From: Salinicola socius
Lineage (GTDB): Bacteria; Pseudomonadota; Gammaproteobacteria; Pseudomonadales; Halomonadaceae
Direction of reading: 5' to 3'
Length of the DNA: 44,091 nt
Assembly: GCF_001937195.1 (NCBI RefSeq)
Contig: NZ_MSDO01000028.1
Location: 1 to 44,091 of the forward strand
Of the stretch, positions 8,798 through 34,851 are shown one piece after another. The position numbers and the translations under genes were made by a program. Each line of letters begins with the position of its first letter. Position 1 is the first letter of the stretch. The notes beneath the pieces were generated by a model, which was not told where the DNA came from, searched no databases, and saw nothing but the letters and a program-made list of their open reading frames with translations.

Positions 8798-9850
<1,053 letters not shown>

Positions 9851-9919: not shown

Positions 9920-9956
9920 GTCCCGATATCAGCAAGTTGTCATAGCCAGCCTTATG

Positions 9957-11707: not shown

Positions 11708-11725
11708 CCATCGGAGACTCGCCTC

Positions 11726-13228: not shown

Positions 13229-13245
13229 ACCGTCGTTAGTCATGC

Positions 13246-13282: not shown

Positions 13283-13331
13283 CCACGCCCGTTGTTGGCG
13301 TGTTCTTGATTCACAGGCCCCGCGGGCCGGA

Positions 13332-13829: not shown

Positions 13830-13983
13830 GGTCGTTTCCTGAACGTTGGTTAACCAGAATCAGGGCTGCGGATCCGCTTGAGGTCGGAGCTGGCGGGTAA
13901 GCGTCGATCAATGGTGAAACATCGATAGCGACGGATGAACCGGCCGGATCGTCATTAGGTTTTCAAATCCTAGCAAGGGGAAC

Positions 13984-14142: not shown

Positions 14143-14293
14143 GACTGCGGCGAACCGCAATCCGCCAATAGTCTACGCCGTTCCTGGCCCGCGAGAAAGC
14201 CGGAGTCGAGGGCGCTTGTGGTATCGTTGGGCGGCCGAGCCGAGCCGGATTCGACCTTTCAGAATTCGATTTTCTCAAAACATGGAAGCGTGC

Positions 14294-15280: not shown

Positions 15281-15366
15281 GTTTTGCCTGACCATCGCTC
15301 GATGGCTTTTCCGACCCATCCGGATCGTTGCGGCGCTCGCCCCGGCTGGCAACGAATCCGCCAACG

Positions 15367-15394
15367 AAAAACGCCCGGCCAGGGCCGGGCGTTT
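15367..15394. terminator. terminator between the convergent EryD-like gene and tkt
   Basis: AAACGCCCGGCC-AGG-GCCGGGCGTTT, a 12-bp perfect stem. On the minus strand it is followed by a T-run (GCGTTTTTCG), so it mainly serves tkt, but it may work both ways. Confidence 0.85.
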
Positions 15395-15446
15395 CGATGA
15401 GTGCCTGCGTCGGGCGTCGATGGTCAGCCCATCCGAGCCTCGAAGG

Positions 15447-18338: not shown

Positions 18339-18422
18339 GATGTTCTCGTGTGGATCATTCACTCGGTATGGGCCCAGGCGGCCCTGTCCGGCGCATTGTC
18401 GCCAAGTCTGTTGCCGCGCGGC

Positions 18423-20147
18423 TCATTGCCGATCGATGACGCCCTGGACGGCGGCGACGATCATCGACAGCGAGACGGCGCCCGGGTCGGGTGTGCCCAG
18501 ACTCTTCTCCGCCAGCGGGCGCGCGCGCCCCAATTTTGGCTTCAGCTCGGCCGTGGCCTGGGCGGCATTGGCGGCCGCGTCGACGGCCTTGCGCCACGCG
18601 TCCGAAAAATCGTCTCCGGCGGCGAGGGCGCGTTCCAGCGTCTCACTGAATGGCACCAGCGCATCGACCAGGGTCTTGTCGCCCAGCTTGGCCTTGCCGA
18701 ACGTCATGACGTCGTCCCGGGCCTTGCTGATGCCGCTTGCGTAGTGCGCCGGCGTCGGCTCGTCTTCATCTCCGAGGGTCACGCTCAGCGCGTTGAGCAT
18801 GACACCCCAGATGGCGCCGGAGGTTCCACCGGCGCGGTCTGCCCACGCCTCTGCGGCCAAGCGTAGCAGAGTGCCGGCGCCCGCGTTGCGGCTGACGGCG
18901 TCCTCGGCAGCCAGTTCGGCGGCGACGACACCGCGCTGCATGCCGATGCCGTGGTCGCCGTCGCCGGCGATGGCATCCAGACGGCCGAGTTCTTCGACGT
19001 TCTGGTCGATGATCTTGCGCGTCGCGCTCAAGGCCTGATAGACGCGTCGGGCGGCGGCAATCGACACCTCGCTCGCCGGGGGGATGGCATCGACATCGGG
19101 GATGTCGAGCTGGGAGCGATCGACGGGGGGCGCAGCCTCGAGACTACCCTTGCGGTAGGCAGGGGCATCCGCCGGCGCCTGCCATAGACGCTCCAGTTCG
19201 TCGTCGAGCCAGAACAGCGTCAACGAGGCGCCTGCCATGTCGAGACTGGTCACCAGTTCACCCACTTCCGGCTCGACGATTTCAAGTCCGGCATCGCCGA
19301 GGAGTTGGTGAACCCGGCGATAGACCACGAACAGCTCTTCGTACTTGATCGAACCCAGGCCGTTGAGCAGCACCGAGACCCTGGCGCCTCTGGCGCTGTC
19401 GATGCCGTCGGGAATCTCCTCGAGCAGATGCGAGACAAGCAGTTCCGCCAGGGCATCGGCGGAGGGCACCTCCTGCTCGCTGATGCCCGGTTCGCCGTGA
19501 ATACCCAGGCCAACCGCCATCTTGCCCGAAGGCACATGGAACAGCGCATCCTTCGCGCCCGGCAAGGTACAGCCATCGAACGCGACGCCCATCGAGCGCG
19601 TGCGGAAATTGGCGGCGCGCGAGACACGAACGACCTCTTCGAGCGAATAGCCCGCCTCCGCGGCCGCCGCCGCAATCTTGAACACGGTCAAGTCGCCGGC
19701 GATGCCGCGCCGCTTGTGAATTTCATCCTGACTGGCGCTGGAAACGTCGTCGATGACGGCGACGATCTCGCAGGGAATGCCTTCGCGAATCAGGCGTTCC
19801 CGTGCCTGACCGAAGTGGAGCACGTCACCGGCGTAATTGCCGAAGCTGAGCAGGACGCCAGCACCGTTGTTGGCGGCCTTGCAGACGTTGTAGACCTGCT
19901 GGGCCGACGGGGAGGCGAACAGGTTGCCCATCACCGCGCCGTGGGCCAGACCCTGGCCGACCAGCCCAGCGAAAGCGGGATAGTGGCCCGACCCGCCACC
20001 GATGACCACGGCGACGGTATTGGGTTCGCTGCGGGTACTGCGGATCACCCCGCCGGGCACCTGGCAGACACGTTGGGCATGGGCAGCGACAAATCCTTCG
20101 GTGGCTTCGTCGACGAAATTTACAGGATCGTTGTAGAGACGTGTCAT
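18423..20147 (-). CDS. DhaK-DhaL fusion kinase, probable erythrulose kinase (LerK/DerK type)
   Basis: A 574-residue ATP-dependent ketose kinase. The DhaK domain (about 1-335) begins MTRLYNDPVNFVDEATEGF and includes VVIGGGSGHYPAFAG and GNYAGDV. His217 in GIHGEPG is the residue that forms a hemiaminal with the ketone. The DhaL domain (about 375-574) has AIAGDGDHGIGMQRG for Mg-ATP and ends TPDPGAVSLSMIV. Fusions of this kind phosphorylate dihydroxyacetone, or in tetritol pathways L- or D-erythrulose. The flanking TIM homologue argues for L-erythrulose 1-kinase (LerK). The start at 20147 has a GGAG site and matches the family N-terminus; an extension to 20243 is rejected. It is divergent from rpiB, sharing a 363-bp control region. 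Glycerone kinase remains possible. Confidence 0.87.
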   Translation of the reverse strand: MTRLYNDPVNFVDEATEGFVAAHAQRVCQVPGGVIRSTRSEPNTVAVVIGGGSGHYPAFAGLVGQGLAHGAVMGNLFASPSAQQVYNVCKAANNGAGVLLSFGNYAGDVLHFGQARERLIREGIPCEIVAVIDDVSSASQDEIHKRRGIAGDLTVFKIAAAAAEAGYSLEEVVRVSRAANFRTRSMGVAFDGCTLPGAKDALFHVPSGKMAVGLGIHGEPGISEQEVPSADALAELLVSHLLEEIPDGIDSARGARVSVLLNGLGSIKYEELFVVYRRVHQLLGDAGLEIVEPEVGELVTSLDMAGASLTLFWLDDELERLWQAPADAPAYRKGSLEAAPPVDRSQLDIPDVDAIPPASEVSIAAARRVYQALSATRKIIDQNVEELGRLDAIAGDGDHGIGMQRGVVAAELAAEDAVSRNAGAGTLLRLAAEAWADRAGGTSGAIWGVMLNALSVTLGDEDEPTPAHYASGISKARDDVMTFGKAKLGDKTLVDALVPFSETLERALAAGDDFSDAWRKAVDAAANAAQATAELKPKLGRARPLAEKSLGTPDPGAVSLSMIVAAVQGVIDRQ

Positions 20148-20300
20148 GGCCGACGCTCCGGGCGGTTGGGTGGATATCGGCCTGGACGGTTGATGAGGAT
20201 CCGATCGCTTCAGCCGATGAAAAAATGATCTTGTGGTGCGCATTTGGATATGAAGGGCTTCGAGAGATCATCATAACGAGAGCAGAACCGCGCGATATGA

Positions 20301-20449: not shown

Positions 20450-20510
20450 GGTGTATGGCTATGATGTGTCGGTCGGCTATCGACGCCATTGACAGCACGG
20501 GAGGTGAGTG

Positions 20511-20972
20511 ATGGCACAGAAGTGGCGAGTGGCGCTGGGGTGTGATGAAGCGGCGTATGACATGAAGGAGGCCATGATCGAGCACGTCAGGTCGCTGGGG
20601 CACGAAGTCGAGGATTTCGGCACTCACGATGCGAAGCCCGTGCTCTATCCGGATATCGCGATCAAGGTCGCGGAAGCCGTTGCGGAGGGTCGCCATGATC
20701 GCGGGATCCTGATGTGTGGCACCGGTATCGGCGTGGCGATTTCCGCCAACAAGGTGCCGGGCATTCGTGCCGCGCAGGCCCACGACACCTACTCGGCCGA
20801 GCGTGCGCGCAAGAGCAATGATGCCCAGATCGTCACCATGGGGGCGCGCGTGATCGGCATCGAATTGGCCAAGACGATTGTCGAGGCTTTCCTTGGCAGC
20901 GAGTTCGAGTCGGGTGGTCGATCTCAACCCAAGGTGGATCGGATCGAGGCCTACGAACAGAGTCACCGTTGA
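20511..20972 (+). CDS. derI: RpiB-family sugar-phosphate isomerase, probable D-erythrulose-4-phosphate isomerase (DerI/EryI type)
   Basis: A 153-residue RpiB/LacAB-family isomerase. Motifs are VALGCDEAAYDMKEAMIEH, LYPDIAIKVAEAV, the active-site cysteine in ILMCGTGIGVAISANKVPGIRAA and HDTYSAERARKSNDAQIVTMGARVIG. In erythritol and threitol pathways of Brucella and Mycobacterium the RpiB homologue turns D-erythrulose 4-phosphate into D-erythrose 4-phosphate; the position between the kinase/TIM genes and the polyol dehydrogenase gene supports that assignment here. Ribosome site GGGAGGTG fixes the start at 20511. It is a single-gene unit: operator upstream, strong terminator downstream. Allose or ribose 5-phosphate isomerase is the alternative. 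Confidence 0.85.
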   Translation: MAQKWRVALGCDEAAYDMKEAMIEHVRSLGHEVEDFGTHDAKPVLYPDIAIKVAEAVAEGRHDRGILMCGTGIGVAISANKVPGIRAAQAHDTYSAERARKSNDAQIVTMGARVIGIELAKTIVEAFLGSEFESGGRSQPKVDRIEAYEQSHR

Positions 20973-21227: not shown

Positions 21228-21252
21228 CATATGACCGAAGTTTGATCATGTG
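21228..21252. promoter_or_regulatory. candidate operator CATATGA-N11-TCATGTG
   Basis: CATATGA and TCATGTG separated by exactly 11 bases, 19 bp before the dehydrogenase start. Spacing and sequence match the site at 20422-20446 apart from one base. The position next to the ribosome site suits a repressor. Confidence 0.55.
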
Positions 21253-21270
21253 TTTTTACGGGAGGCCCTT

Positions 21271-22383
21271 ATGAGCGAGTCCACCGCGGCATCCACGCAG
21301 CCAAGCCCCGCTGGCGATATTCCCAAGACGATGAAGGCGGTGGTCGCCTATGCGCCCAACGATTATCGCTACGAGGAAGTGCCGGTCCCCGAGATCGACG
21401 CCAAGGAGATCCTGGTCAAGGTCGAGGGATGTGGCATCTGCGCGGGGGATATCAAGTCCTACGACGGCGCGCCGAGTTTCTGGGGCGACGAGACGCAGCC
21501 CGCCTATATCAAGGCGCCGATGATCCCGGGGCACGAGTTCATCGGGCGGGTGGTCAAGGTTGGCGCCGAGGTCGAGGGATATGCGGTCGGCGACCGCGTG
21601 ATCTCCGAGCAGATCGTGCCGTGCTGGAACTGTCGTTTCTGCGGTCGCGGCCAGTATTGGATGTGCGAGAAGCACGATCTCTACGGCTTCCAGAACAACG
21701 TCAACGGCGGCATGGCCGAGTACATGAAGTTCACCAAGGAGGCGATCAACTACCACGTCCCCGAGGAGCTGCCGCTGGAGAAGGCGATCCTGATCGAGCC
21801 TTATGCCTGCTCGCTGCATGCGGTGCAGCGCGCCAGAATCGAGCTGGGCGATGTGGTGGTGCTTTCCGGTGCCGGCACGCTGGGGCTCGGCATGGTCGGC
21901 GCAGCCAAGAAAGCGGGCGCGGAGAAATTGATCGTGCTCGACCTGTTCGACGAGCGTCTGGAGCTGGCCAAGAAGTTCGGCGCCGACCTGACCCTCAACC
22001 CCAGGCGCGACGACGTGGTCTCGATCATCAAGGAGATGACCGAGGGCTACGGCTGCGATGTCTATATCGAGGCGACCGGGCATCCCAAGTCGGTCGAGCA
22101 GGGGCTGTCGATGATTCGCAAGCTGGGGCGCTTCGTCGAGTTCAGCGTGTTCAAGGATCCGGTCAGCGTTGACTGGAGCATCATCTCCGACCGCAAGGAG
22201 CTCGACGTGCTGGGCTCCCACCTCGGCCCGTACTGTTATCCGCTGGTCATCGAGGGGATCCGCAACGGCGATTTCCCGACCGAAGGGGTGGTGACTCACA
22301 AGCTGCCGCTGGAGAAGTACGAGGAAGGGTTCGAGCTGATGAAGAGCGGTTCGAAGTCCTTGAAGATCGTGCTGATCCCTTGA
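21271..22383 (+). CDS. zinc-dependent polyol dehydrogenase (L-threitol/erythritol dehydrogenase type), copy 1
   Basis: A 370-residue medium-chain dehydrogenase. Catalytic zinc ligands are in GCGICAGDIKSY and GHEFIGRVVKVG; the structural zinc cysteines are in CWNCRFCGRGQYWMC; the NAD site is VVLSGAGTLGLGMVGAAKKAGAEKLIVLD. The family contains LthD/EltD enzymes, which oxidise L-threitol or erythritol to L-erythrulose. Placement as first gene of the operon with the ABC importer and beside the kinase/isomerase set supports this. The start at 21271 (MSESTAAS) has the ribosome site GGGAGG; the in-frame extension to 21250 overlaps the operator. A paralogue lies at 27758-28864. Substrate stereochemistry cannot be read from sequence. 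Confidence 0.85.
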   Translation: MSESTAASTQPSPAGDIPKTMKAVVAYAPNDYRYEEVPVPEIDAKEILVKVEGCGICAGDIKSYDGAPSFWGDETQPAYIKAPMIPGHEFIGRVVKVGAEVEGYAVGDRVISEQIVPCWNCRFCGRGQYWMCEKHDLYGFQNNVNGGMAEYMKFTKEAINYHVPEELPLEKAILIEPYACSLHAVQRARIELGDVVVLSGAGTLGLGMVGAAKKAGAEKLIVLDLFDERLELAKKFGADLTLNPRRDDVVSIIKEMTEGYGCDVYIEATGHPKSVEQGLSMIRKLGRFVEFSVFKDPVSVDWSIISDRKELDVLGSHLGPYCYPLVIEGIRNGDFPTEGVVTHKLPLEKYEEGFELMKSGSKSLKIVLIP

Positions 22384-22414
22384 GTCGACAGGTTTGCAAA
22401 AGAGGACGCTTTTC

Positions 22415-23065
22415 ATGAGTGCAGCAGTTGCCAGTCGGCCAGCGGCGCCGAACAAGCTGAAGGGACGTCTGATCATCGGTGCCTGCGTGGTCGTAGTGCT
22501 GGCCATAATGGCCTGGGATACCAAGGTGGTCGAGATCGGCTCGGAGGCGGCGCTCGAGGGTGGCTTCTCGGCGGACACCTACGGTGGCGAGCATTTTCCC
22601 GACATCCAGGCCAGCGTCGAAGAGCGTGCGGTCGAGGCCAGTGAGCTGGCATCGGCCGTTCTCGATGACTCCACTGCGGCGGGACAGAAGTACGGCATTG
22701 GTGAAGGCTTCGGGCCGGTGGTGCCGGTCACGTTCACCGGCACTTTCGGCGAGGCCCGTTCCGGCATCTATCCGGTCACGGTGGACGGCGTGTCCGACGA
22801 CATCACCATTCGCGTGCAGACCGGCCCGGCGATCAACGGCACCGACCTGCGCGATGCTACCGGCGAGATATCGTTCGGCGAGTTCACCAACCAGATCGAG
22901 TATCAGAATGCGGGAGCGTCGATCAATGACGCCATGAAGCAGGCGGTGCTGGCGGATATCGATACTGCCAATCTGAGCGGCAAGAGCGTCGGCGTGACCG
23001 GCGTGTTCAAGTTGATCAATCCCAAGAACTGGCTGGTGACGCCCGTCAGTCTGGAGGTGGAATGA
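22415..23065 (+). CDS. DUF2291-family protein associated with a sugar ABC importer
   Basis: A 216-residue protein with one N-terminal membrane segment (LIIGACVVVVLAIMAWDTKVV, about residues 19-39) and a predicted extracytoplasmic domain containing VPVTFTGTFGEARSGIYPVTVDG and an SGKSVGVTGVFKLINPKNWLVTPVSLEVE ending. This is the DUF2291 family, regularly encoded next to ribose-type ABC importers, here between the dehydrogenase and the ATPase gene. There is no lipobox, so it should be membrane-anchored rather than a lipoprotein. Its stop overlaps the ATPase start by 4 bases (ATGA), showing coupling. Biochemical function is not known; a role as transporter accessory is inferred from context. Confidence 0.8.
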   Translation: MSAAVASRPAAPNKLKGRLIIGACVVVVLAIMAWDTKVVEIGSEAALEGGFSADTYGGEHFPDIQASVEERAVEASELASAVLDDSTAAGQKYGIGEGFGPVVPVTFTGTFGEARSGIYPVTVDGVSDDITIRVQTGPAINGTDLRDATGEISFGEFTNQIEYQNAGASINDAMKQAVLADIDTANLSGKSVGVTGVFKLINPKNWLVTPVSLEVE

Positions 23066-24621
23066 TGCCCTCATCTCCCATCCAGCCTGCGCCTGCCAGC
23101 GAACCCGCCGACGACATCGTGCTGTCGGCGCGGGATGTCGCCAAGTCGTTCGGTAGCGTGCATGCGCTCAAGACCGTCAACTTCGACGTCTATCGCGGTC
23201 AGGTGACCACGCTGTTCGGCGAGAACGGCGCCGGCAAGTCGACGTTGATGAAAATCCTCTCCGGCGTGATGCAGCCGACCTCCGGCGAGATCCTGCTGGA
23301 AGGCGAGCCGGTGCGCTTCGCCTCGACCACCGACGCCCAGCGCCTGGGGATATCGATCATCCATCAGGAACTCAGTCTGGCGCCCAACCTCAGCGTTCGC
23401 GACAACATCTTCATGGGGCGCGAGCTGAAGGGGGCGATGGGTATCGACTACGCCGAGGAGGCGCGTCAGACCCGTGCCTTGATGGAAGAACTCGACGAGC
23501 CGATCGATCCGTTGACCCCGGTCGAGGATTTGCGCCTGGGCCAGCAGCAGATCGTCGAGATCGCCCGCGCGCTATCGGTCAATTCGCGCATTCTGATCAT
23601 GGACGAGCCGACCTCGGCGCTGTCGGCGACCGAAGTCGAAGTGCTGTTCCGGGTGATTCGCGATCTCAAGAGTCGCGGGGTGTCGATCGTCTATATCTCT
23701 CACCATCTGGAAGAGGCGCTGCTGATCACCGATCACGCGGTCGTGCTGCGCGACGGCGTGATGACGGCCGACGCCAGGCGCGCGGATATCGATCTGGAGT
23801 GGATCGTGCGCAACATGGTCGGCGAGAACTTCGATCTGGGCTCGCCGCCGACCGGTCACGCCCTGGGCGAGGTGGCGCTATCGCTGGACGACGTCAGCAT
23901 CGCCGATGTCGCCGTGCCGGAGCGCTCGGTGGTCGATCATCTGTCGCTGGACGTGCGTGCCGGCGAGATCGTCTGCATCTACGGGTTGATGGGCGCGGGG
24001 CGAACCGAGCTGCTCGAGTGCGTGGCCGGTCGCGTGCCGCTGAGCGGTGGGCGGGTGGTGCTGGAGGGCGAGGACGTCTCGCACCTGAGTATCGCCGATC
24101 GCATCGCCAAGGGGCTGGTGCTGGTGCCGGAAGATCGCCAGCGCGATGGCCTGGTTCAGACCATGTCGGTGGGCGAGAACCTGTCGCTGGCCAGCATCAA
24201 GGCGTTCACCCGCTGGTTGCTGACCTCGGGCCCGCGGGAACGCGGCGTGGTGGATGAGTCGATCGCCAGCGTGCATATCAAGACGGATGGCCCCAAAGCC
24301 GAAATCGGATCGCTCTCCGGTGGTAACCAGCAGAAGGTGGTCATCGGCAAGATGCTGGCGACCCATCCGCGGGTCGTCGTTCTCGACGAGCCGAGTCGCG
24401 GTATCGATATCGGCGCCAAGGCCGAGGTGTTCAAACTGCTGGCGGAAGGCGCATCCCGACAGGGCCTGGCGGTGATCTTCTCCACTTCCGAAGTCGGCGA
24501 ATGCCTGAGCATCGCACACCGCATCGTGGTGATGAGTCGCGGACGTATCGCGGCCGAATTCGGCGCCGACGCTTCCAAGGAGCAGATCATGGCGGCCTCC
24601 GGCGAAGCCGTGGTCGCCTGA
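23062..24621 (+). CDS. sugar ABC importer ATPase (two-domain, RbsA type)
   Basis: A 519-residue protein with two fused nucleotide-binding domains. Domain 1 has Walker A GENGAGKST, signature LRLGQQQIVEIARAL and Walker B ILIMDEPTSAL. Domain 2 has the degenerate loop GLMGAGRTELLECVAG typical of RbsA/MglA second halves, signature LSGGNQQKVVIGKML and VVVLDEPSRGIDIGAK. It energises import through the permease and binding protein encoded next. By neighbourhood the cargo should be a tetritol, comparable to the EryEFG transporter of rhizobia. The start is one of two adjacent ATG codons overlapping the DUF2291 stop. Confidence 0.95.
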   Translation: MMPSSPIQPAPASEPADDIVLSARDVAKSFGSVHALKTVNFDVYRGQVTTLFGENGAGKSTLMKILSGVMQPTSGEILLEGEPVRFASTTDAQRLGISIIHQELSLAPNLSVRDNIFMGRELKGAMGIDYAEEARQTRALMEELDEPIDPLTPVEDLRLGQQQIVEIARALSVNSRILIMDEPTSALSATEVEVLFRVIRDLKSRGVSIVYISHHLEEALLITDHAVVLRDGVMTADARRADIDLEWIVRNMVGENFDLGSPPTGHALGEVALSLDDVSIADVAVPERSVVDHLSLDVRAGEIVCIYGLMGAGRTELLECVAGRVPLSGGRVVLEGEDVSHLSIADRIAKGLVLVPEDRQRDGLVQTMSVGENLSLASIKAFTRWLLTSGPRERGVVDESIASVHIKTDGPKAEIGSLSGGNQQKVVIGKMLATHPRVVVLDEPSRGIDIGAKAEVFKLLAEGASRQGLAVIFSTSEVGECLSIAHRIVVMSRGRIAAEFGADASKEQIMAASGEAVVA

Positions 24622-24661
24622 CAAGAACACGTTAGCGCCTTTTCTCGAACGGAGTTTTGAT

Positions 24662-25831
24662 ATGTCCAAACACAGCCAAGCGGCAGAGCGCCAACGGGGT
24701 GGCTTCGATCTGGGGCGCCTGCTGCTCGAGGGGCGAGCCTTTTTCGCCCTGATCGCGATCATCATCATCTTTTCGGCGCTGTCACCGGTCTATTTCTCGA
24801 CCGGTAATTTTCTGACCATGTCGTCCCACGTGGCGATCTTCGGGTTGCTGTCGATCGGCATGCTGCTGGTCATTCTCACCGGCGGTATCGATCTGTCGGT
24901 GGGCTCGACGCTGGGACTGTGCGGGGTGGTCGCGGGCTTTCTGATGCAGGGCGTGACCTTCGACATGTTCGGCGTCACGCTCTATCCGCCGGTGTGGGTG
25001 GTGGTAATCCTGACCTGCGCGGTCGGCGCGTTCATCGGCGCCATCAATGGCGTACTGATCGCCTACTTCAAGGTACCGGCCTTCGTCGCGACGCTGGGTC
25101 TGCTCTATGTCGCCCGAGGCGTGGCGCTGCTGATGACCGATGGTCTGACCTACAACAATCTCGGAGGCAGCCCGGAGCTTGGCAACACCGGCTTCGACTG
25201 GCTCGGCTTCAACCGTCTGTTCGGCGTACCGGTGGGCGTGTTGATTCTGGCAGCAGTGGCGGTCATCACCATTCTGGCTCTGGCGCGCACCCCTTTCGGG
25301 CGCTGGGTCTACTCGACGGGCGGCAATGCGCGTGCCGCCGAGCTCTCCGGCGTGCCGGTCAAGCGGGTCCAGGTCTCTGTCTACGTGCTTTCTGGCATCT
25401 GCGCGGCCATCGCGGGCCTCGTGCTCTCTTCTCAGTTGACGTCGGCCGGCCCGACGGCGGGTACCACCTACGAGCTGACCGCCATCGCGGGTGTCGTGAT
25501 CGGCGGTGCCGCACTGACCGGTGGTCGTGGCAACGTGCGCGGCACGCTGCTCGGGGCGTTCGTGATCGGCTTCCTCTCCGATGGCCTCGTCATCATCGGT
25601 GTCTCTTCCTACTGGCAGACCGTGTTCACAGGCGCCGTGATCGTGCTGGCGGTGCTGCTCAACAGCATTCAGTACAGCGGGCGCAAGAAACGCGCCGGCA
25701 AATTGTCCGAGCCTACGTCTCCAGAGCCAAAGACGCCCCAGCCCCCCTCTTCTCCAGCCTCGAACGCCGACGCTGAACGCGTGACGACCGGGGCGGAAAG
25801 TCCCGCCGGCAAGCCGGCAACACAGCATTGA
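24662..25831 (+). CDS. sugar ABC importer permease (RbsC type)
   Basis: A 389-residue inner-membrane permease with about nine hydrophobic segments (FFALIAIIIIFSAL, SHVAIFGLLSIGMLLVILTG, WVVVILTCAVGAFIGAINGVLI and others). The RbsC motifs are present: LTGGIDLSVGSTLGL, KVPAFVATLGLLYVARG, FGRWVYSTGGNARAAELSGV (coupling region) and IAGVVIGGAALTGGRGNVRGTLLGA. The last 45 residues are a hydrophilic Pro/Ser/Glu-rich tail (EPTSPEPKTPQPPSSPASN) not needed by the family. It is separated by 40 bp from the ATPase gene and is part of the same operon. Confidence 0.95.
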   Translation: MSKHSQAAERQRGGFDLGRLLLEGRAFFALIAIIIIFSALSPVYFSTGNFLTMSSHVAIFGLLSIGMLLVILTGGIDLSVGSTLGLCGVVAGFLMQGVTFDMFGVTLYPPVWVVVILTCAVGAFIGAINGVLIAYFKVPAFVATLGLLYVARGVALLMTDGLTYNNLGGSPELGNTGFDWLGFNRLFGVPVGVLILAAVAVITILALARTPFGRWVYSTGGNARAAELSGVPVKRVQVSVYVLSGICAAIAGLVLSSQLTSAGPTAGTTYELTAIAGVVIGGAALTGGRGNVRGTLLGAFVIGFLSDGLVIIGVSSYWQTVFTGAVIVLAVLLNSIQYSGRKKRAGKLSEPTSPEPKTPQPPSSPASNADAERVTTGAESPAGKPATQH

Positions 25832-25906
25832 TCCGTGCGTCTCGATCAACGCGAGCTAGAGCACAACACGTTAGACCAACACAACCGCAAAAAAGGGTGA
25901 TCCATC

Positions 25907-26863
25907 ATGTTCAAGACAGGAAAGCGCCTGCTGATCGCAGCCCTCGCCGTGAGTGCGCCGTTACTCGCCGGAAGTGCCATGGCGCAGGACAAGGGGCTGA
26001 TCTCGATCATCGTCAACGATACCTCCAACCCTTACTGGTTCACGGAAGGCAAGATCGCCCGTGAAACCGCCGAGGAGTTGGGGTACGAGGCCAATGTCAG
26101 TGCCCACAAGGGCGATACCAATACGGAAAGTCGACAAATCGATACCGCGATCACCAACCAGGCCAAGGCGATCATTCTCGACCCTGCCAACGCCGACGGA
26201 TCGGTCGGCGCGGTGCGCAAGGCCGTCGATGCCGGCATTCCGGTATTCCTGGTCAACGCCGAGATCAATGAGCAGGGCCTGGCCAAGGCGCAATTGGTGT
26301 CCAACAATGCGCAGGGGGCGGCAATGGGCGCCCAGCAGTGGGTTCAGTCGGTCGGCGACTCGGCCAATTACGTCGAGTTGAAAGGCGCTCCGTCGGACAA
26401 CAACGCGGCGACCCGCTCCAACGGCTACGAAACCGTGCTGAGTCAGTATCCGGATCTCAAGAAGGTCGGCGAGGACGTTGCCAACTGGGATCGCACCCAA
26501 GGGTTCAACAAGATGCAGAGCCTGCTGCAGGCCAACCCGGATATCCAGGGCGTGATCAGCGGCAACGACGAGATGGCATTGGGCGCGATTGCGGCCCTCA
26601 AGGAAGCCGGCAAGCTGAAGGATATCGTCGTCGGTGGTTTCGACGGTTCGCCCGATGCGGTCGATGCGATCAAGGCCGGTGAATTGGCGTATACCGTGCT
26701 GCAGCCGGTAGCGATCTTTTCCGAAGACGCCGTACGCATGGCAGACAAGTTCATCACTTCAGGTGAAACCGGGCTCGGCGGCGAGAAGAAACTCTACGAT
26801 TGCATCCTCATCACGCCGGACAATGTCGATCAGTACACCTCTGCGTTCGTCATGGAGCAGTGA
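25907..26863 (+). CDS. periplasmic sugar/polyol-binding protein of the ABC importer (RbsB type)
   Basis: A 318-residue periplasmic binding protein with a Sec signal peptide (MFKTGKRLLIAALAVSAPLL, cleavage likely after AMA at about residue 25). The mature type I fold shows ISIIVNDTSNPYWFTEGKIARETAEELGYEANV, AIILDPANADGSVGAVRKAVDAGIPVFLVNAEI, VELKGAPSDNNAATRSNGYETVL, and VISGNDEMALGAIAALKEAG. A repeated GACTTTRGTC-type site is absent here; it is most likely co-transcribed with the permease (75 bp gap). Ribosome site AAGGGTGA. Ligand unknown, inferred to be a tetritol from the surrounding enzymes. A terminator follows. Confidence 0.93.
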   Translation: MFKTGKRLLIAALAVSAPLLAGSAMAQDKGLISIIVNDTSNPYWFTEGKIARETAEELGYEANVSAHKGDTNTESRQIDTAITNQAKAIILDPANADGSVGAVRKAVDAGIPVFLVNAEINEQGLAKAQLVSNNAQGAAMGAQQWVQSVGDSANYVELKGAPSDNNAATRSNGYETVLSQYPDLKKVGEDVANWDRTQGFNKMQSLLQANPDIQGVISGNDEMALGAIAALKEAGKLKDIVVGGFDGSPDAVDAIKAGELAYTVLQPVAIFSEDAVRMADKFITSGETGLGGEKKLYDCILITPDNVDQYTSAFVMEQ

Positions 26864-26957: not shown

Positions 26958-27761
26958 TTAGATAGCGATCAACCGATACCGAATTTCGGCATCATCCAGT
27001 ACCTGGCGATGCTCGTCCGTCAGGCCCGCATCGATCAGGACCAGGTCGAATTCGCCCAGGTCGGCCAGCCGATGCAATGCGCCGTGGCCGAACTTGGCGC
27101 TGTGGACGAGCAGTATCCGGCGCTCTGCCGCCGCCATCTGTGCGCGCTTGATCTGGGTCACTGCGGGGTCCTGCACGTAAGCCGTGGTGCCGAGGATGGC
27201 CGATGCGGAAAGCACCGCGACGTTGGCCCGCAGGTTGGCGAGCGTTTGCTCGCACAGCAGGCCGAACGTTGCGTTGAAGCGCGGCTGGTAATCCCCGCCC
27301 AGGGTGATCAGCTTGATGCCGCTGGCGGCCTTGAGCCGTTCGATGCTCTCCAGACTATTGGTGATGACGGTCAACGGCTCACGGCTGGGCAGCAGTGAAG
27401 CCAATTCGGCAGCCGTCGTGGAGTCGTCCAGCATCACCGCTTCGCCGGACGCGATCTCCTCCAGCGCCGCACGGGCCAGCGCCTGCTTTTCCCGCGTGGC
27501 GATATGCGAACGCAGCGCGAAGTTGCTTTCGAACACGCTGGAGGAGCGAGTGGTGACCCCGCCATGCTGCTTGTTGACCATGCCCTGGTCGGAGAGGGCG
27601 TCGAGATCGCGATGTACCGTCATCCGGCTGACGCCGAAGCGCTCGGCCAGCTCGTCGACCTGGGCCGAGCCGGCCTGAATGATGTAGTCCAGCATCGCCT
27701 GGCGGCGTGCTGTTGCGCCCCTTGTCGCGGTGCGAGGCGGTACGGCTTCGAGCGAGCTCAT
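26958..27761 (-). CDS. DeoR-family transcriptional repressor
   Basis: A 267-residue DeoR/GlpR-type regulator. The N-terminal helix-turn-helix is RRQAMLDYIIQAGSAQVDELAERFGVSRMTVHRDLDALSDQGMVNKQHGG, and the C-terminal DeoRC sensor domain holds ALEEIASGEAVMLDDSTTAAELASLL, LTVITNSLESI and LGGDYQPRFNATFG. Its start overlaps the stop of the second polyol dehydrogenase by 4 bases, so the two are co-transcribed. The pair is divergent from the FGGY kinase operon and is probably auto-regulatory. It is the second regulator in the locus besides the EryD-like protein. Effector is likely a phosphorylated tetrulose by family analogy. Confidence 0.92.
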   Translation of the reverse strand: MSSLEAVPPRTATRGATARRQAMLDYIIQAGSAQVDELAERFGVSRMTVHRDLDALSDQGMVNKQHGGVTTRSSSVFESNFALRSHIATREKQALARAALEEIASGEAVMLDDSTTAAELASLLPSREPLTVITNSLESIERLKAASGIKLITLGGDYQPRFNATFGLLCEQTLANLRANVAVLSASAILGTTAYVQDPAVTQIKRAQMAAAERRILLVHSAKFGHGALHRLADLGEFDLVLIDAGLTDEHRQVLDDAEIRYRLIAI

Positions 27762-28864
27762 GACGCGCCCGTCGTCAGCACGACCTTGATCGAGTCGCGC
27801 TGGGCGGCGATCTCGAAGCCTCGCTCGAAATCGGCCAGCGGAACGTGATGGGTGACGATGCCGCGGGTCGTCACCAACCCGCGAGCGAGCAGGTCGATCG
27901 CCACCGGATACGTGTGCGGTGATAGGTGCGAGCCGCGAATATCCAGCTCCTTGCGATCACCGATCGTCGACCAGTCGACGGTAGTGGGTTCCTTGAACAC
28001 GCTGAACTCGACGAAACGGCCCAGCTTGCGTAGCGATTCCAGGCCCTGGACTACGCCGCTCGATGAACCGGTGGCGTCGATATAGACCTCGCAGCCGTAA
28101 CCGCCGGTGAGAGCACGTATCTCCTTGGCGATATCGTCGCGATGCGGAGTGAAGCCGTGATCGGCGCCGTAGTCGCGAGCCAGATCCAGGCGGTCGTCAT
28201 GAGTGTCGACCAGAATCAGCTGTCTGGGCGTCTTGAGCCTGGCGAGCTGAACCATGGCCAGGCCGATCGGGCCGCCGCCGGCGATCACCACGGTATCGTC
28301 GAACTGGATCTCGGCGCGATTGACCGCATGGATACCGCAGGCCAGCGGCTCGAGGAAGGCGGCGTCCTCGACGCTCAGGCGAGGATCGACCCTATGCAGC
28401 ACCGCGTTGGCCGGCACGCGCAGGTATTCCGCCATGCCGCCATCGGCGACGCCACCCTGAAAGCCGAAGATGTTGTGCACCTCGCACATCCAGTAGTGGC
28501 CGCGCTGACAATAGAAGCACTGTCGGCAGGGCAGAATCTGCTCCGGCACCACCCGATCGCCCAGCGAGACGCCAAAACGCTCGGCAGCCTCTTCGCCCAG
28601 CGCGACCACCTCGCCGGCGAATTCGTGGCCGACGATCATTGGCGGCTTCACGAAAGGCGCGAAGCGGTCGCCGTCGCCCCAGTACATCGCGGCTCCGTCG
28701 CGGCATTTGAGATCGCTCGAACAGATGCCGCAGGCCTGGATCCTGAGGATCAGCTCGCCCTGGCCGGGCCTGGGCGTCGGCGCGCGTTCGAGGCGATAGT
28801 CGCCGGGCCCGCGACAGACCACGGCCTGCATGCTGTCGGGAAGAGACACTCGAGAATCGGGCAT
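27758..28864 (-). CDS. zinc-dependent polyol dehydrogenase, copy 2
   Basis: A 368-residue medium-chain dehydrogenase and clear paralogue of the one at 21271. Shared features are GCGICSSDLKCRDG against GCGICAGDIKSYDG, GHEFAGEVV, the structural zinc cluster CRQCFYCQRGHYWMC, the LRKLGRFVEFSVFK segment and DRKELDIRGSHL. The NAD site is VVIAGGGPIGLAMVQLARLK. Divergence is large enough to expect a different substrate or stereoisomer (for example erythritol against L-threitol). It is transcribed with the DeoR gene and away from the kinase operon. The spacer 28865-29145 is AT-rich and contains one GACTTTRGTC dyad. Confidence 0.85.
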   Translation of the reverse strand: MPDSRVSLPDSMQAVVCRGPGDYRLERAPTPRPGQGELILRIQACGICSSDLKCRDGAAMYWGDGDRFAPFVKPPMIVGHEFAGEVVALGEEAAERFGVSLGDRVVPEQILPCRQCFYCQRGHYWMCEVHNIFGFQGGVADGGMAEYLRVPANAVLHRVDPRLSVEDAAFLEPLACGIHAVNRAEIQFDDTVVIAGGGPIGLAMVQLARLKTPRQLILVDTHDDRLDLARDYGADHGFTPHRDDIAKEIRALTGGYGCEVYIDATGSSSGVVQGLESLRKLGRFVEFSVFKEPTTVDWSTIGDRKELDIRGSHLSPHTYPVAIDLLARGLVTTRGIVTHHVPLADFERGFEIAAQRDSIKVVLTTGAS

Positions 28865-29145: not shown

Positions 29146-30708
29146 ATGTCACGCGGTTATCTGCTGGGGCTCGACGGAGGCTCCAGTTCCACCAAAGCGG
29201 TGATTTTCGATACCGACGGCAATGTCGTGGGCATCGGGCGGGAGGCGTCCCGGCTCGAGCATCCTCAGGCACACTGGGTCGAACGTGACATGAATGCCAC
29301 CTGGGCAAGTGCCGCTCAGGCGATACGCGCTGCGCTGGCCGCTGCCAACGTGGATGGCAGCGAGATTGTGGCGATCGGCGTCACGGCGCACGGCGATGGG
29401 CTCTATCCGCTCGATCGGAAAGGCGAGCCGCTCGGCCAAGCCATCACCTCGCTCGATAGCCGCGCGGCGGGCATCGTCGAACGCTGGTGTCGAGAAGGCG
29501 TGCGTGACGAGGCGCTGGCGCGGATCGGACAGATGCCTTTTGCCTTCTCGCCGGTGACCTTGCTGGCATGGATGCAGGAACATCAACCCGAACGGTTGTC
29601 CGCGCTCGGCCACGTGCTGACCTGCAAGGACTGGCTGCGATTCAAGCTGACCGGCGAGGTTGCCACCGACTTCACCGAGGCCAGCACCGGCTATACCGAT
29701 GTGAACACGCAGCGTTATAGCCGGGAGGCGCTGTCGATGCTGGGTATCGATAGTGTCTTCGACACGCTGCCGGCTGTCCGCATGCCCGACGAGATTGCCG
29801 GCCATGTCAGCATGGCGGCTGCGCGCGCCACCGGCCTCAAAGCCGGTACGCCGGTGGCGGCGGGGCTTCACGATGTCACGGCCAGCGCGGTGGGGTTGGG
29901 AAATGTCGAGTCGGATACCCTGACCATCGCAGCCGGCACCTTCAGCATCAACGAGGTCTTCTCCGACGCGCCGAAGCCCGACTCGCGCTGGGCCACGCGC
30001 AACGGACTGCGCCCTGGCCAATGGCTCAACATGGCGATTTCACCGGCTTCCTCGAGCAATCTCGAATGGTTTCATCGCCAATGGGGGCGGGCCGGCGACG
30101 GCGATACCGGTGCCTTTTTCGCCGAGATGGAAGCATCGCTGGACGCCGCGTTCCAAAGCCCGTCTCGACTGGTCTATCACCCGTTCCTTTACGGCTCACC
30201 CTATGACGAACCCGCCAGCGCCGGGCTGTTCGGGCTGCAGGGCTGGCATGATCGCGGCCATGTACTCCGCGCGATTCTGGAAGGCGTGGTGTTCAATCAT
30301 CGCGTCCATGTCGATGCGCTGGCGTCGACTTTCCCCATCGACCGCGTGCGCATCACCGGCGGCGGCAGTCACTCGCCGCGGCTGGCGCAGCTCTTCTCCG
30401 ATTCGCTCGGCCGGCCGCTGGAGACGTCCCGTATCCAGGAAGCGGCCGCCTGGGGTGCCGCCATCTGCGCGGGGGTGGCGGCCGAGGTGTTTCCCGCCAT
30501 TGCGTCAGCTACACCGCTTTGCGAGATCGACCATCGCTATACACCCGAGGCCCGGCGCCAGGCCGAGTGCCAGCGGGGCTTCGAACGTTACCAGCGGTTG
30601 GTGGAGTGCCTGCGTCCGCTGTGGGCGACGCTCGATGCCGACGCGCCGCCGTTGGCATCGCCGGCAGTCGAACCTCAACCCAGTCCAACGGCGGGAGCCG
30701 CACGATGA
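29146..30708 (+). CDS. FGGY-family carbohydrate kinase (EryA-like)
   Basis: A 520-residue sugar/polyol kinase. The N-terminal FGGY domain begins GYLLGLDGGSSSTKAVIFDTDG and has GVTAHGDGLYPLDRKGEPL with LDSRAAG in the substrate region. The C-terminal domain carries the ATP site TLTIAAGTFSINEVF and VRITGGGSHSPRLAQLFSDSLGRPLE. It is the first gene of an operon with a GlpD-like dehydrogenase and an aldolase-like protein, all overlapping by ATGA. In erythritol catabolism of Brucella the corresponding pair is EryA (erythritol to L-erythritol 4-phosphate) and EryB. The residue pattern does not settle the substrate; a pentitol or another polyol is possible. The last 30 residues are a Pro/Ala-rich tail. 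Confidence 0.85.
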   Translation: MSRGYLLGLDGGSSSTKAVIFDTDGNVVGIGREASRLEHPQAHWVERDMNATWASAAQAIRAALAAANVDGSEIVAIGVTAHGDGLYPLDRKGEPLGQAITSLDSRAAGIVERWCREGVRDEALARIGQMPFAFSPVTLLAWMQEHQPERLSALGHVLTCKDWLRFKLTGEVATDFTEASTGYTDVNTQRYSREALSMLGIDSVFDTLPAVRMPDEIAGHVSMAAARATGLKAGTPVAAGLHDVTASAVGLGNVESDTLTIAAGTFSINEVFSDAPKPDSRWATRNGLRPGQWLNMAISPASSSNLEWFHRQWGRAGDGDTGAFFAEMEASLDAAFQSPSRLVYHPFLYGSPYDEPASAGLFGLQGWHDRGHVLRAILEGVVFNHRVHVDALASTFPIDRVRITGGGSHSPRLAQLFSDSLGRPLETSRIQEAAAWGAAICAGVAAEVFPAIASATPLCEIDHRYTPEARRQAECQRGFERYQRLVECLRPLWATLDADAPPLASPAVEPQPSPTAGAAR

Positions 30709-32510
30709 CCGAATCTCTGAATCCACCACCGCTGACGCGTCAGCAGACGCTGGAACGACTGCGGGCCGATCCGGCGGTCTCGGTGCTGATCATCGGCGCC
30801 GGCATCAACGGTGCCGGCCTGTTTCGCGATCTGGCGTTGCAGGGTGTCGATACGCTGATCGTCGACAAGCAGGACTTCTGTGCCGGGGCCAGCGCGGCGC
30901 CTTCGCGACTGATTCACGGCGGCCTCAAGTATCTGGAGACCGGGGAGTTCCGCCTGGTGGCGCAGTCGACCCGCGAGCGTAATCTGCTGCTGCGCAACGC
31001 GCCGCACGTGGTGCATCCGCTGCGCACCGCGATGCCGACGCACAGCTGGTGGGGGGGCATCTGGCCGTCGATCCAGCGGTTCTTTCGTCGCCCGGCGAAG
31101 ATCGACGACCGCGGCATCCTGATCAGTGAAGTCGGGCTGACGCTCTATGACTTCTTCGGTCGCCACTTTCGCAGCATGCCGCGTCATTCGCTGATGCTGG
31201 GGCGCCGGGTGCGGGAATCGCTGCCGGACATTCGCCGCGACGTTCGTGCGCTTCACACCTACTACGATGCCGCGATCAGCCAGGCCGAACGCCTCGGCTA
31301 CGAGCTGATCGACGATGGCTGCCGGACCCATCGCGGGGCGATGGCACTCAACCATGTGACCCTGACCGGTGGCGAAGGCGGAGCGGTGAGTTTCAACGAT
31401 GAAGACGGCAACGCTTTCACGGTCCGCCCCCAGCTCATCGTCAACGCCGGCGGCGCCTGGATCGATGAGATCAACCGTCGGTTGGGGCGCGGAACGCAGC
31501 ACATCGGTGGTACCAAGGGCGGCCATCTGATCGTCGATGTGCCGATCCTTCGGGATCAGCTCGACGGGCGGATGATCTATTTCGGCACCCCGGATGGTCG
31601 CATCTGCCTGATCTATCCGTTCATGAATCACGTACTGGTCGGCGCCACCGACATTCGTTGCCCCGATCCGGACCAGGCCGTCTGCGAGGATGCCGAACGC
31701 GACTACATGCTCGAGGCGGTGCGCTATCTGTTCCCCGACGTGCCGATCGGACCGGATCAGGTGCGTTATCGCTATAGCGGGGTGCGTCCGCTCCCGCGCA
31801 GCGACGCCGCCGATCCGGGCCAGATCAGCCGAGATCACGCCATCGTCGAGGATCGCATCCAGGATTGGCCGGTGCTGTCGCTGGTCGGCGGCAAATGGAC
31901 CACATTTCGCGGGTTTGCCGAGGAGGTCGCCGACGACGTGCTTGCCAGGCTCGGCTGCCGACGCGAGATCGATACCCGCGAGCTGGCGATCGGAGGCGGG
32001 AAGGATTACCCCCGCGATGCGATATCGCGGGAGGCCTGGCTTGCGCGGGTAACCGCGCTCTGCGACGGCGACCGGCATCGGGCGATCACCCTGTTGAGCC
32101 GCTATGGCACTCGAGGCGAAGCGGTAGGGCGGCACTGCGCGAGGATGAGCGCTGATGGTGTCTGTCGTCAGCGCCCGCTGAATTCGATGACGGATTATCG
32201 TGTCGGGGAGATCGATTTCGTCTGCCGCTTCGAGCGCGTCGAGCATCTGGCAGACGTGCTGTTCCGTCGTCTGCCGATTGCGCTCTCCGGGCAACTGGAC
32301 GGCGTCGTGGTCGAGGAGGTCGCATCGCATTGCCGAAGGGCCCTGGAATGGTCCGAATCACGCTGCCGGGACGAAATCGAGGCGGTGCGAGAGGTGGCCC
32401 TGCGGGCGCATGGCGTTTCGCTCGCGCCAATTTGCGGGGAGCCGCCGGAGGCTGTCGCGGCTGCCACTGAAGACCCGGGAACGTCCTCTGCCCAGGAGAT
32501 CACACCATGA
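30705..32510 (+). CDS. FAD-dependent polyol-phosphate dehydrogenase (GlpD/EryB-like)
   Basis: A 601-residue flavoprotein of the GlpD family. The FAD-binding start VLIIGAGINGAGLFRDLALQGVDTLIVDKQDF is followed by SAAPSRLIHGGLKYLETGEFRLV. The middle has GTKGGHLIVDVPIL, YPFMNHVLVGATDI and RYRYSGVRPLPRS, and the end of the catalytic part is LVGGKWTTFRGFAEEVADDVL. A C-terminal DAO_C domain (about 420-560) and a 40-residue acidic tail follow, so it is longer than GlpD or EryB (about 500). It would oxidise the carbon next to the phosphate and pass electrons to the quinone pool at the inner membrane. Start overlaps the kinase stop by ATGA; the frame upstream (30519) is not used. EryB is the best analogue; a glycerol-3-phosphate dehydrogenase is the alternative. 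Confidence 0.85.
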   Translation: MTESLNPPPLTRQQTLERLRADPAVSVLIIGAGINGAGLFRDLALQGVDTLIVDKQDFCAGASAAPSRLIHGGLKYLETGEFRLVAQSTRERNLLLRNAPHVVHPLRTAMPTHSWWGGIWPSIQRFFRRPAKIDDRGILISEVGLTLYDFFGRHFRSMPRHSLMLGRRVRESLPDIRRDVRALHTYYDAAISQAERLGYELIDDGCRTHRGAMALNHVTLTGGEGGAVSFNDEDGNAFTVRPQLIVNAGGAWIDEINRRLGRGTQHIGGTKGGHLIVDVPILRDQLDGRMIYFGTPDGRICLIYPFMNHVLVGATDIRCPDPDQAVCEDAERDYMLEAVRYLFPDVPIGPDQVRYRYSGVRPLPRSDAADPGQISRDHAIVEDRIQDWPVLSLVGGKWTTFRGFAEEVADDVLARLGCRREIDTRELAIGGGKDYPRDAISREAWLARVTALCDGDRHRAITLLSRYGTRGEAVGRHCARMSADGVCRQRPLNSMTDYRVGEIDFVCRFERVEHLADVLFRRLPIALSGQLDGVVVEEVASHCRRALEWSESRCRDEIEAVREVALRAHGVSLAPICGEPPEAVAAATEDPGTSSAQEITP

Positions 32511-33328
32511 CGACCGTCTTTTCTGCCAGCGGCTTGCGCACCGGACGGCTGTTTCGCCGCGAGACCGGATCGAGCTGCATGGTGGCGTTCGATCGTACGC
32601 TGCTGGCGGGACCTGTGGAGCATGCCATCGATGCGCGTCGGACCTGCGAGGCGATCGTCGCGGCCGGTCCGGAAGCGGTGCTGTTGTCGCCCGGCATGCT
32701 CAAGTCTTGCGCTGACCTGTTCGCCGACAGCCGCGCGCCCAAAGTGGTGCTTCGGATCGACTATCCGATGGTGGGCGACTTCACGCTGGCGGGAGAGGAG
32801 TATCACCGCATGATCGCAACGCCCGCCCAGGCGCAGGCGATGGGGGCGGACGCGGTAGTGATGTGTCTGATTTCCGGTTACGACGACCCCGGGCGCGAAG
32901 CCGACAACCTTCGGGCGGTAGCGGAGACCGCCCGCCAGTGCGAGGCGATCGGACTGCCACTGATCGTCGAGGCGGTGGTGTGGGGGCACCGTGAGCAAGG
33001 GCGCGAAGACGGTCGTCTCGATGGCGAGCGCATCGCGCGGGTGGCGAGGATCGGCGCCGAGCTGGGAGCCGATCTGATCAAGGCGCAGTTCACCGGCGAC
33101 CCTCGGGACATGCAGGGCCTCGTACAGAGCTGTCCGGTTCCGGTACTCGTCCTGGGTGGGTCGGCGATGAACGACGACGAGGCGCTGGCGTGTTTCACCC
33201 GGGATGCACTGGATAACGGCGCACGGGGCGTGATTTTCGGCCGCAATGCCTGGCAGCGGGAGAATGCCACGGCGGGTATCGAGCGGCTGGTCGATATCGT
33301 GCACGGTACCGGTAGCCCTCGCCGCTAG
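32507..33328 (+). CDS. DhnA-class (DeoC/FbaB/LsrF-like) aldolase or isomerase of unknown substrate
   Basis: A 273-residue TIM-barrel protein. The C-terminal half matches the DhnA family: LPLIVEAVVWG, then GAELGADLIKAQFTGDPRDM with the likely Schiff-base lysine (Lys192), CPVPVLVLGGSAMNDDEAL, and NGARGVIFGRNAWQRENATAGI. The N-terminal active-site motif, usually DHG, is here AFDRTLLAGP, so the histidine is replaced by arginine. It overlaps the GlpD-like gene by ATGA and must act on its product, probably a ketose 1-phosphate. A class I aldolase would give DHAP plus a short aldehyde (formaldehyde from a tetrulose phosphate, glycolaldehyde from a pentulose phosphate); an isomerase or racemase role replacing EryC is also possible. 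The stop codon lies within a 13-bp tandem array. Confidence 0.8.
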   Translation: MTTVFSASGLRTGRLFRRETGSSCMVAFDRTLLAGPVEHAIDARRTCEAIVAAGPEAVLLSPGMLKSCADLFADSRAPKVVLRIDYPMVGDFTLAGEEYHRMIATPAQAQAMGADAVVMCLISGYDDPGREADNLRAVAETARQCEAIGLPLIVEAVVWGHREQGREDGRLDGERIARVARIGAELGADLIKAQFTGDPRDMQGLVQSCPVPVLVLGGSAMNDDEALACFTRDALDNGARGVIFGRNAWQRENATAGIERLVDIVHGTGSPRR

Positions 33329-33425
33329 CCCTCGCCGCTAGCCCTCGCCGCTAGCCCTCGCCGCTAGCCCTCGCCGCTAGCCCTCGCCGCTAGCCCTCGC
33401 CGCTAGCCCTCGCCGCTAGCCCTCG
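33313..33425 (+). repeat. 8.7 copies of a 13-bp tandem repeat at the end of the aldolase-like gene
   Basis: Eight identical TAGCCCTCGCCGC units in a row (33313-33416) and a partial ninth. The first unit encodes the last residues of the aldolase-like protein (GSPRR), and the TAG of the second unit is its stop codon. The remaining units are non-coding. Perfect identity implies recent expansion by slippage. No other function is evident; no stem-loop terminator was seen in it. Confidence 0.97.

Positions 33426-33630: not shown

Positions 33631-34851
<1,221 letters not shown>

Follow-up and report, generated by a model that had tools for sequence, protein, structure and literature searches.

A probable polyol-catabolic operon of Salinicola socius joins an FGGY kinase and a GlpD-like dehydrogenase to a DhnA-type aldolase homologue

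An operon with a putative ketose 1-phosphate aldolase

The subject of this analysis is a three-gene operon of Salinicola socius (assembly GCF_001937195.1, contig NZ_MSDO01000028.1), located in a stretch of 44,091 nucleotides that is referred to below as the window. The genes encode, in order, an FGGY carbohydrate kinase (520 amino acids), a GlpD-like flavin adenine dinucleotide (FAD) dehydrogenase (601 amino acids) and a DeoC/DhnA-type protein (273 amino acids), with the Pfam families FGGY_N/FGGY_C, DAO/DAO_C and DeoC, respectively. The third product is most likely a class I aldolase acting on a ketose 1-phosphate. We hold this reading with moderate confidence, and it draws on the overlaps between the genes, the conserved residues, a predicted fold that is best matched by a structure with dihydroxyacetone phosphate (DHAP), the FGGY genes near related genes, and a run of the same three gene classes in Paracoccus. 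On balance, the three genes would constitute a single catabolic branch, which lies beside, not inside, the putative tetritol route of the same genomic island. Among the literature matches listed, no description of this operon was recognised.

Both junctions of the operon are ATGA overlaps: the kinase gene stops with TGA at 30706-30708 and the dehydrogenase gene starts with ATG at 30705, and the dehydrogenase gene stops with TGA at 32508-32510 and the aldolase-type gene starts with ATG at 32507. An earlier sequence-only reading of this stretch had given the coordinates, the strand and both overlaps, all of which proved exact when the sequence was read again; it had also assigned the genes to one pathway, and the double overlap indicates one operon and probably one pathway. 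Promoter-like and terminator-like sites around the operon occurred at chance level (1 found versus 0.8 expected and 2 found versus 3.0 expected, respectively). None of the three proteins passed a curated NCBIfam cut-off. A housekeeping role as glycerol kinase and GlpD was rejected, because two further FGGY_N proteins and two further GlpD-like proteins are encoded elsewhere in the genome, and also because the operon proteins fall short of the cut-offs for GlpK and GlpD. A 13-base unit, CCGCTAGCCCTCG, occurs in nine copies (99% match) from the last codons of the aldolase-type gene to beyond its stop (33309-33425).

We infer the substrates and reactions from gene order, families, conserved residues, predicted fold and co-occurrence, which were observed or computed. 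In the proposed mechanism, the kinase would phosphorylate a sugar alcohol at a terminal carbon, and the dehydrogenase would then oxidise the carbon next to the phosphate to yield a ketose 1-phosphate, with the electrons presumably passing to the quinone pool. A ketose 1-phosphate is proposed because the GlpD motifs point to oxidation next to a CH2-phosphate: SGVRP, ISRDH and GGKWT, which we take to hold the phosphate-binding residues in E. coli GlpD, are all present in the dehydrogenase. The DhnA-type protein would form a Schiff base with the ketone via Lys192 and cleave the C3-C4 bond, releasing DHAP and a small aldehyde; a pentulose would yield glycolaldehyde, a tetrulose formaldehyde and a hexulose glyceraldehyde.

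Residues, predicted fold and family models of the DhnA-type protein

The protein has both the profile score (121.7 bits versus a gathering cut-off of 23.8) and the Schiff-base lysine of the DhnA/DeoC-LacD class I aldolases (PF01791). Lys192 is present in all 26 aligned relatives (hand-picked from 120 listed, with at least 264 found) and aligns with the lysine of MJ0400 and of the archaeal class I fructose-bisphosphate aldolase, while the regions GG217-218 and GRN245-247 are also kept among these relatives. In place of the window's own sequence, the first row of this alignment and the structure model used P0001, a cluster representative with 99% identity to it. In the structure prediction that the sequence-only reading had proposed, the best matches of the predicted model were MJ0400 with DHAP, followed by the archaeal class I fructose-bisphosphate aldolase. 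The likeness to these two enzymes covers the fold, the Schiff-base lysine and the GG and GRN regions. The differences are that, on the aldehyde side, Glu155 and Val157 stand where the archaeal aldolase has its active-site Trp and Tyr, which we take to be catalytic, and that the protein falls below the curated cut-offs of both the MJ0400-type model (2-amino-3,7-dideoxy-D-threo-hept-6-ulosonate synthase; 156.1 bits versus 241) and the archaeal class I fructose-bisphosphate aldolase model (83.5 bits versus 430).

The sequence-only reading had singled out Lys192 and a DRT motif (D29-R30-T31) in place of the usual DHG. Both are in the sequence, although the motif is not unique, as position 30 is R in 18 and H in 8 of the 26 chosen relatives. 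These eight H30 relatives weaken DRT as the key change, and Glu155 and Val157 seem to be the more telling ones. Of the options that the same reading had left open, residues, fold and FGGY neighbours together favour an aldolase, with a ketose 1-phosphate as the probable type of substrate.

Two other roles were weighed against these scores. The DhnA-type protein is very unlikely to be a housekeeping aldolase, whether for fructose bisphosphate or another substrate, that came with the island. Its close homologues do bear the source name class I fructose-bisphosphate aldolase, but the window encodes a separate class I aldolase at 8798-9850 (638 bits versus a cut-off of 327), the DhnA-type protein misses every listed curated cut-off, and its gene has no match in any of the 43 sampled same-family genomes outside Salinicola. 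It is even harder to credit that the kinase and the DhnA-type protein process a phosphorylated signal such as autoinducer-2. LsrK and LsrF are likewise an FGGY kinase paired with a DhnA protein, a SorC-family-like regulator is encoded at 14216 (LsrR model 114.8 bits versus a cut-off of 486; DeoR 145.5 versus 420), the window contains a sugar-type ATP-binding cassette (ABC) importer, and the related locus L043 has the order importer, regulator, DhnA, FGGY. However, both proteins lie far below the respective cut-offs (LsrF equivalog model NF006081, 86.9 bits versus 297; LsrK model, 184.1 versus 528), a GlpD-like gene lies between their genes, and a tetritol-type island surrounds them.

Kinase and dehydrogenase stand apart from EryA and EryB

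The operon resembles the EryABC/EryHI system of Brucella and Rhizobium in having an FGGY kinase gene followed by a GlpD-like dehydrogenase gene, with the same type of importer and with TIM-type and RpiB genes nearby. It differs in that the kinase and the dehydrogenase belong to other clades, EryC was not found, and the third gene is DhnA-type. The kinase shows 46% identity to the kinase of a second kinase/GlpD pair on plasmid pRL12 of Rhizobium johnstonii versus 27% to EryA, and the dehydrogenase shows 50% identity to the GlpD of that pair versus 30% to EryB. Across the panel, the kinase has 46-48% identity to seven second-pair kinases and 27-29% to four EryA proteins, and the dehydrogenase 47-52% to nine GlpD2-group proteins and about 30% to four EryB proteins. 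In the kinase tree, the window protein forms a clade with the seven second-pair kinases of Rhizobiales and Paracoccus (support 100/98), with EryA apart; Rubrobacter kinases join next and less firmly (82/93). One Rubrobacter row of this tree is a wrong-frame open reading frame (ORF) with a very long branch, for which a long-branch warning applies, and one own-genome row is over-long; both lie outside the clade used. Inside the second-pair clade, the dehydrogenase pairs most closely with two enzymes from Agrobacterium and Shinella (100/99), whereas EryB and the two other GlpD-like proteins of the genome fall outside its clade.

On pRL12, where the ery labels are taken from gene order and from the available part of PMC3599248, the kinase, GlpD-like, TIM-barrel, regulator, TIM and RpiB genes adjoin a DUF2291-ABC importer. 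The second kinase/GlpD pair, which has no assigned function, lies on the far side of this importer (L030:7338-10656), and beside it is a class II fructose-bisphosphate aldolase gene on the other strand. The second pair was seen in seven Rhizobiales/Paracoccus records: five (pRL12, Rhizobium K1/93, Paracoccus seriniphilus, Sinorhizobium B11 and Pararhizobium) have the importer next to it, and two (Shinella HZN7 and Paracoccus AK26) do not. The plasmid gene tables used for these neighbourhoods are incomplete.

That EryC is missing from the window, as the sequence-only reading had stated, was borne out by tblastn (best E value 0.084). Elsewhere in the genome, the ORFs at seven EryC-superfamily places are unlike the four EryC proteins used as queries, which are mutually 81-88% identical (best E value 0.22), and a direct search found EryC in none of 18 Salinicola genomes at an E value of 0.01, in a set that held no genome known to carry it. 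Nevertheless, the proposal that an EryA-EryB route had its EryC swapped out is not supported, because the kinase and the dehydrogenase lie outside the EryA and EryB clades and because the gene types of an EryC-free route are encoded in the window.

The EryC searches also bear on the possibility that the DhnA-type protein is a Schiff-base C3-epimerase, which would convert D- to L-erythrulose 1-phosphate, feed a TIM-type/RpiB route and represent a new fold for the EryC step. We regard this as improbable. It would suit the failure to find EryC in the 18 genomes, while TIM-type and RpiB genes are present, and the loss of the aldolase Tyr/Trp pair with the lysine kept would allow imine-enamine epimerisation. 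Against it, the Dak branch does not need such an enzyme, and the kinase/GlpD pair is not EryA/EryB. A weak further point is that no TIM-type match occurs in the 9-12 kb around the DhnA gene of L038, L043 and the Rubrobacter loci; this absence says little, since the TIM-type gene of Salinicola itself lies 14 kb from the aldolase gene.

Gene neighbourhoods of the relatives

Neighbourhoods were counted in 80 loci kept of at least 565 confirmed places. An FGGY gene lies within 3 kb of the aldolase homologue in all three loci at 70% identity or more (Salinicola), in the single locus at 50-70%, in four of seven at 40-50% (with two more at 4.6-4.7 kb), in four of 14 at 33-40%, and in five of 55 below 33%, many of which are archaeal by title. 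A GlpD-like gene was found within 3 kb in the three Salinicola loci, in none of the 22 at 33-70% and in one of the 55 below. The FGGY kinase and the DhnA-type protein are the most constant pair, which fits phosphorylation followed by cleavage. The oxidation step varies, as would be expected if the imported compound is a ketose in some organisms and a polyol in others. In three loci (L039, L040 and L044), the DhnA gene is followed at a distance of about 1 kb by a kinase of the window clade, with one intervening gene. In L038 and L043, an importer, a regulator, a DhnA-type gene and an FGGY kinase gene stand together, and these stretches contain no match to the window glpD, dak, tim, rpiB or eltD; in L038, a cupin-like ORF lies just before the DhnA gene and the contig begins 1.8 kb upstream. 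Paracoccus marinaquae (L105:5151-15047) has a run of GlpD-like, DeoR, GlcD-like, DhnA (27-28% identity) and FGGY genes with a sugar-type importer. Because its GlpD is nearer to EryB than to the GlpD of the window, this run is a distant parallel and not the same lineage. Gene calls in L038, L043 and L105 relied on ORFs, GC bias and BLAST and were made partly by eye.

Besides the two active-site substitutions, several observations weigh against cleavage of a ketose 1-phosphate made by this kinase and dehydrogenase. The operon itself contains no aldehyde dehydrogenase gene. In Rubrobacter radiotolerans, a 2-hydroxyacid dehydrogenase gene, not glpD, separates the DhnA gene from a downstream kinase gene of the window clade, and in Rubrobacter indicoceani the DhnA gene stands with Dak and RpiB genes, with no kinase of that clade in the stretch covered. 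No DhnA gene is annotated beside the second pair in the seven Rhizobiales/Paracoccus records, and tblastn found none in two of the second-pair records (L030 and L034). The nearest GlpD relatives, from Agrobacterium and Shinella, adjoin a zinc dehydrogenase and have no annotated FGGY neighbour, so this GlpD type is not always tied to a kinase; a search of these two proteins for the pattern SG.RP did not find the motif.

Distribution in and beyond Salinicola

The sequence-only reading had called for a survey of co-occurrence. Among 18 Salinicola genomes (the own genome included), the kinase, the Dak kinase and the aldolase-type gene were each found in 16, and all three are missing from the same two genomes; the G002 Dak copy is in two pieces at contig ends, and the G009 match to the aldolase-type gene has an internal TGA. 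This pattern is not due to chance. Gene order was compared in 12 regions from 11 genomes. The eight regions on one contig share the order dak, rpiB, eltD1, DUF2291, ABC, deoR, eltD2, kinase, and tkt, tim, glpD, the aldolase gene and metK are also present wherever these regions reach; the remaining four are partial because of contig ends or the choice of region. Some regions vary: five (L171, L172, L173, L175 and L180) carry a further sugar-type importer in the interval from rpiB to eltD1, three (L172, L173 and L182) have a binding-protein/LacI-like gene ahead of the kinase, and L173 and L174 hold extra genes; in L174, deoR gave only a short match.

In the rest of the order, one of 36 sampled genomes gave a weak partial match to the aldolase-type gene. 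A draw across the phylum with the relative P0017 as the query (E value 1e-30) gave matches in three of 398 genomes, two of them Salinicola and one with a 33% relative. The same query found nothing in 385 Alphaproteobacteria genomes (E value 1e-35; the set had no positive control), yet such relatives are known there (Tropicimonas P0033 and Rhodospirillales L038).

The surrounding island and the candidate substrates

The operon belongs to an island (Table 1) that apparently lies within the tkt-epd-pgk-fba/metK neighbourhood typical of gammaproteobacteria. On one side (2469-17441) are pgk, a GAPDH-like gene (probably epd), a class I fba and tkt, names that come mostly from reading the sequence, and metK lies on the other side (33631-34851). 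The ABC subunits of the importer show 74-76% identity to those of pRL12 and the DUF2291 protein 53%; the best-scoring chains for the binding protein are two that bear the name probable ribose-binding protein. The window TIM shares 36% identity with pRL12 TpiB and 35% with TpiA of its own genome, and the other TIM of the genome, on a different contig, scores better (299 versus 192 bits). NF000722 is the best model of both the window TIM and pRL12 TpiB, which passes it. Five other TIM-type chains outscore the solved L-erythrulose-1-phosphate isomerase (11ef), which reaches 118 bits with the window protein. The role given to this protein is thus a possible one, suggested by position, second-copy status and the best model shared with pRL12 TpiB. 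Two elements of other kinds were also seen: a flavin mononucleotide (FMN) riboswitch on the minus strand at 13981-14145, immediately ahead of the gene for the SorC-like regulator, and a selenocysteine insertion sequence (SECIS) element (RF01989) at 41426-41484, about 8 kb downstream of the aldolase-type gene, which suggests a selenocysteine protein, perhaps formate dehydrogenase.

Table 1 Operon and island genes in the window, with assignments and their basis
Feature	Coordinates	Strand	Basis
FGGY carbohydrate kinase, probable polyol kinase, not EryA	29146..30708	+	PF00370/PF02782; below every NCBIfam cut-off; EryA outside its clade
GlpD-like FAD dehydrogenase, probable polyol-phosphate dehydrogenase, not EryB	30705..32510	+	DAO/DAO_C; SGVRP, ISRDH and GGKWT motifs; clade apart from EryB
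DhnA/DeoC-type class I aldolase homologue, probable ketose 1-phosphate aldolase	32507..33328	+	PF01791; Lys192
eltD2 (our label), zinc-dependent dehydrogenase, divergent from operon	27758..28864	-	ADH_N/ADH_zinc_N; adjoins kinase in Salinicola regions; below all NCBIfam cut-offs
DeoR/GlpR-type regulator	26958..27761	-	DeoRC, HTH_DeoR
DUF2291-type protein, ABC ATPase, permease, substrate-binding protein: EryEFG-like importer	22394..26863	+	Identity to pRL12; Pfam of the three ABC proteins
eltD1 (our label), zinc-dependent dehydrogenase	21250..22383	+	Pfam; 8/8 one-contig Salinicola regions spanning this part; below all NCBIfam cut-offs
RpiB homologue, possible D-erythrulose 4-phosphate isomerase	20508..20972	+	Only RpiB match of the genome; 48% to RpiB of pRL12
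Fused DhaK-DhaL kinase, possible erythrulose kinase	18423..20243	-	Dak1/Dak2; NF011049 subfamily, 762 bits, cut-off 492
Second TIM-type isomerase, possible LerI/EryH-like	17571..18362	-	Position, second copy, best model NF000722
Transketolase, adjoining island	15447..17441	-	ORF; name from reading the sequence; tkt-tim-dak-rpiB order in Salinicola regions

According to the available part of PMC10733421, EryC converts D- to L-erythrulose 1-phosphate, the EltD-LerK-LerI-DerI route runs without EryC, and these four enzymes enable an E. coli strain to grow when L-threitol or erythritol is supplied instead of erythrose 4-phosphate supplements; two tetritol routes are also told apart in what is available of PMC12780249. 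The enzyme types of the EltD-LerK-LerI-DerI route of Mycobacterium smegmatis are all encoded in the window (two zinc dehydrogenases, Dak, the second TIM and RpiB). Hence, as judged from sequence, the island encodes the gene types of a tetritol route with no need of EryC, a match at the level of enzyme type. The M. smegmatis-type route does not explain the operon, because it uses no FGGY kinase, GlpD or aldolase.

Within the reading of a ketose 1-phosphate aldolase, we lean slightly towards a pentulose 1-phosphate over a tetrulose 1-phosphate as the substrate. For five carbons speak the 2-hydroxyacid oxidoreductases of R. radiotolerans and Paracoccus L105 (both below curated cut-offs), which could handle glycolate derived from glycolaldehyde. 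Release of formaldehyde is expected to be uphill and toxic. A comparable conversion of a ketose 1-phosphate to DHAP and glycolaldehyde is the ribulose 1-phosphate aldolase route of haloarchaea; unlike here, its enzyme is FucA-type and zinc-stimulated, and its ribulose 1-phosphate comes from guanosine (PMC9700705, available part).

In the tetrulose version, the kinase and the GlpD-like enzyme would make erythrulose 1-phosphate from a tetritol imported by the EryEFG-like system, and a dedicated lyase (EC 4.1.2.2) would split it into DHAP and formaldehyde. This is possible, but we give it a minor share of our confidence. It is favoured by the tie of the operon to a tetritol-type island with this importer, by the importer of the same type beside the related kinase/GlpD pair in the five records named above, and by two Rubrobacter plasmids with Dak (46-48%), RpiB (53%), zinc dehydrogenase (30-32%) and transketolase (46-47%) genes near the DhnA gene. 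The energetics and toxicity of formaldehyde release count against it, and the 2-hydroxyacid dehydrogenase of R. radiotolerans and the GlcD-like oxidase of L105 better suit a two-carbon aldehyde. In the available text of PMC10733421, the EC 4.1.2.2 activity is described solely as a side reaction of other aldolases, known from DHAP aldolases. That the DhnA-type protein is a dedicated erythrulose 1-phosphate formaldehyde-lyase, forming with its TIM-type, RpiB and transketolase neighbours a natural counterpart of the designed erythrulose monophosphate cycle, is put forward as a doubtful proposal.

Significance

The operon would represent a variant of polyol catabolism rather than a new kind of system. 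If the reading of a ketose 1-phosphate aldolase is true, a relative of GlpD produces the ketose 1-phosphate in this polyol pathway and a class I aldolase of DhnA type splits it. Such a pathway would assign a role to a subfamily of aldolases in which close members carry just the name fructose-bisphosphate aldolase. The second kinase/GlpD pair that adjoins the Rhizobium importer of erythritol type would also become easier to understand. Should the substrate be a tetrulose 1-phosphate, the enzyme would be of interest to builders of formaldehyde-fixing cycles, and a dedicated formaldehyde-lyase beside TIM-type, RpiB and transketolase genes could in principle run towards formaldehyde fixation.

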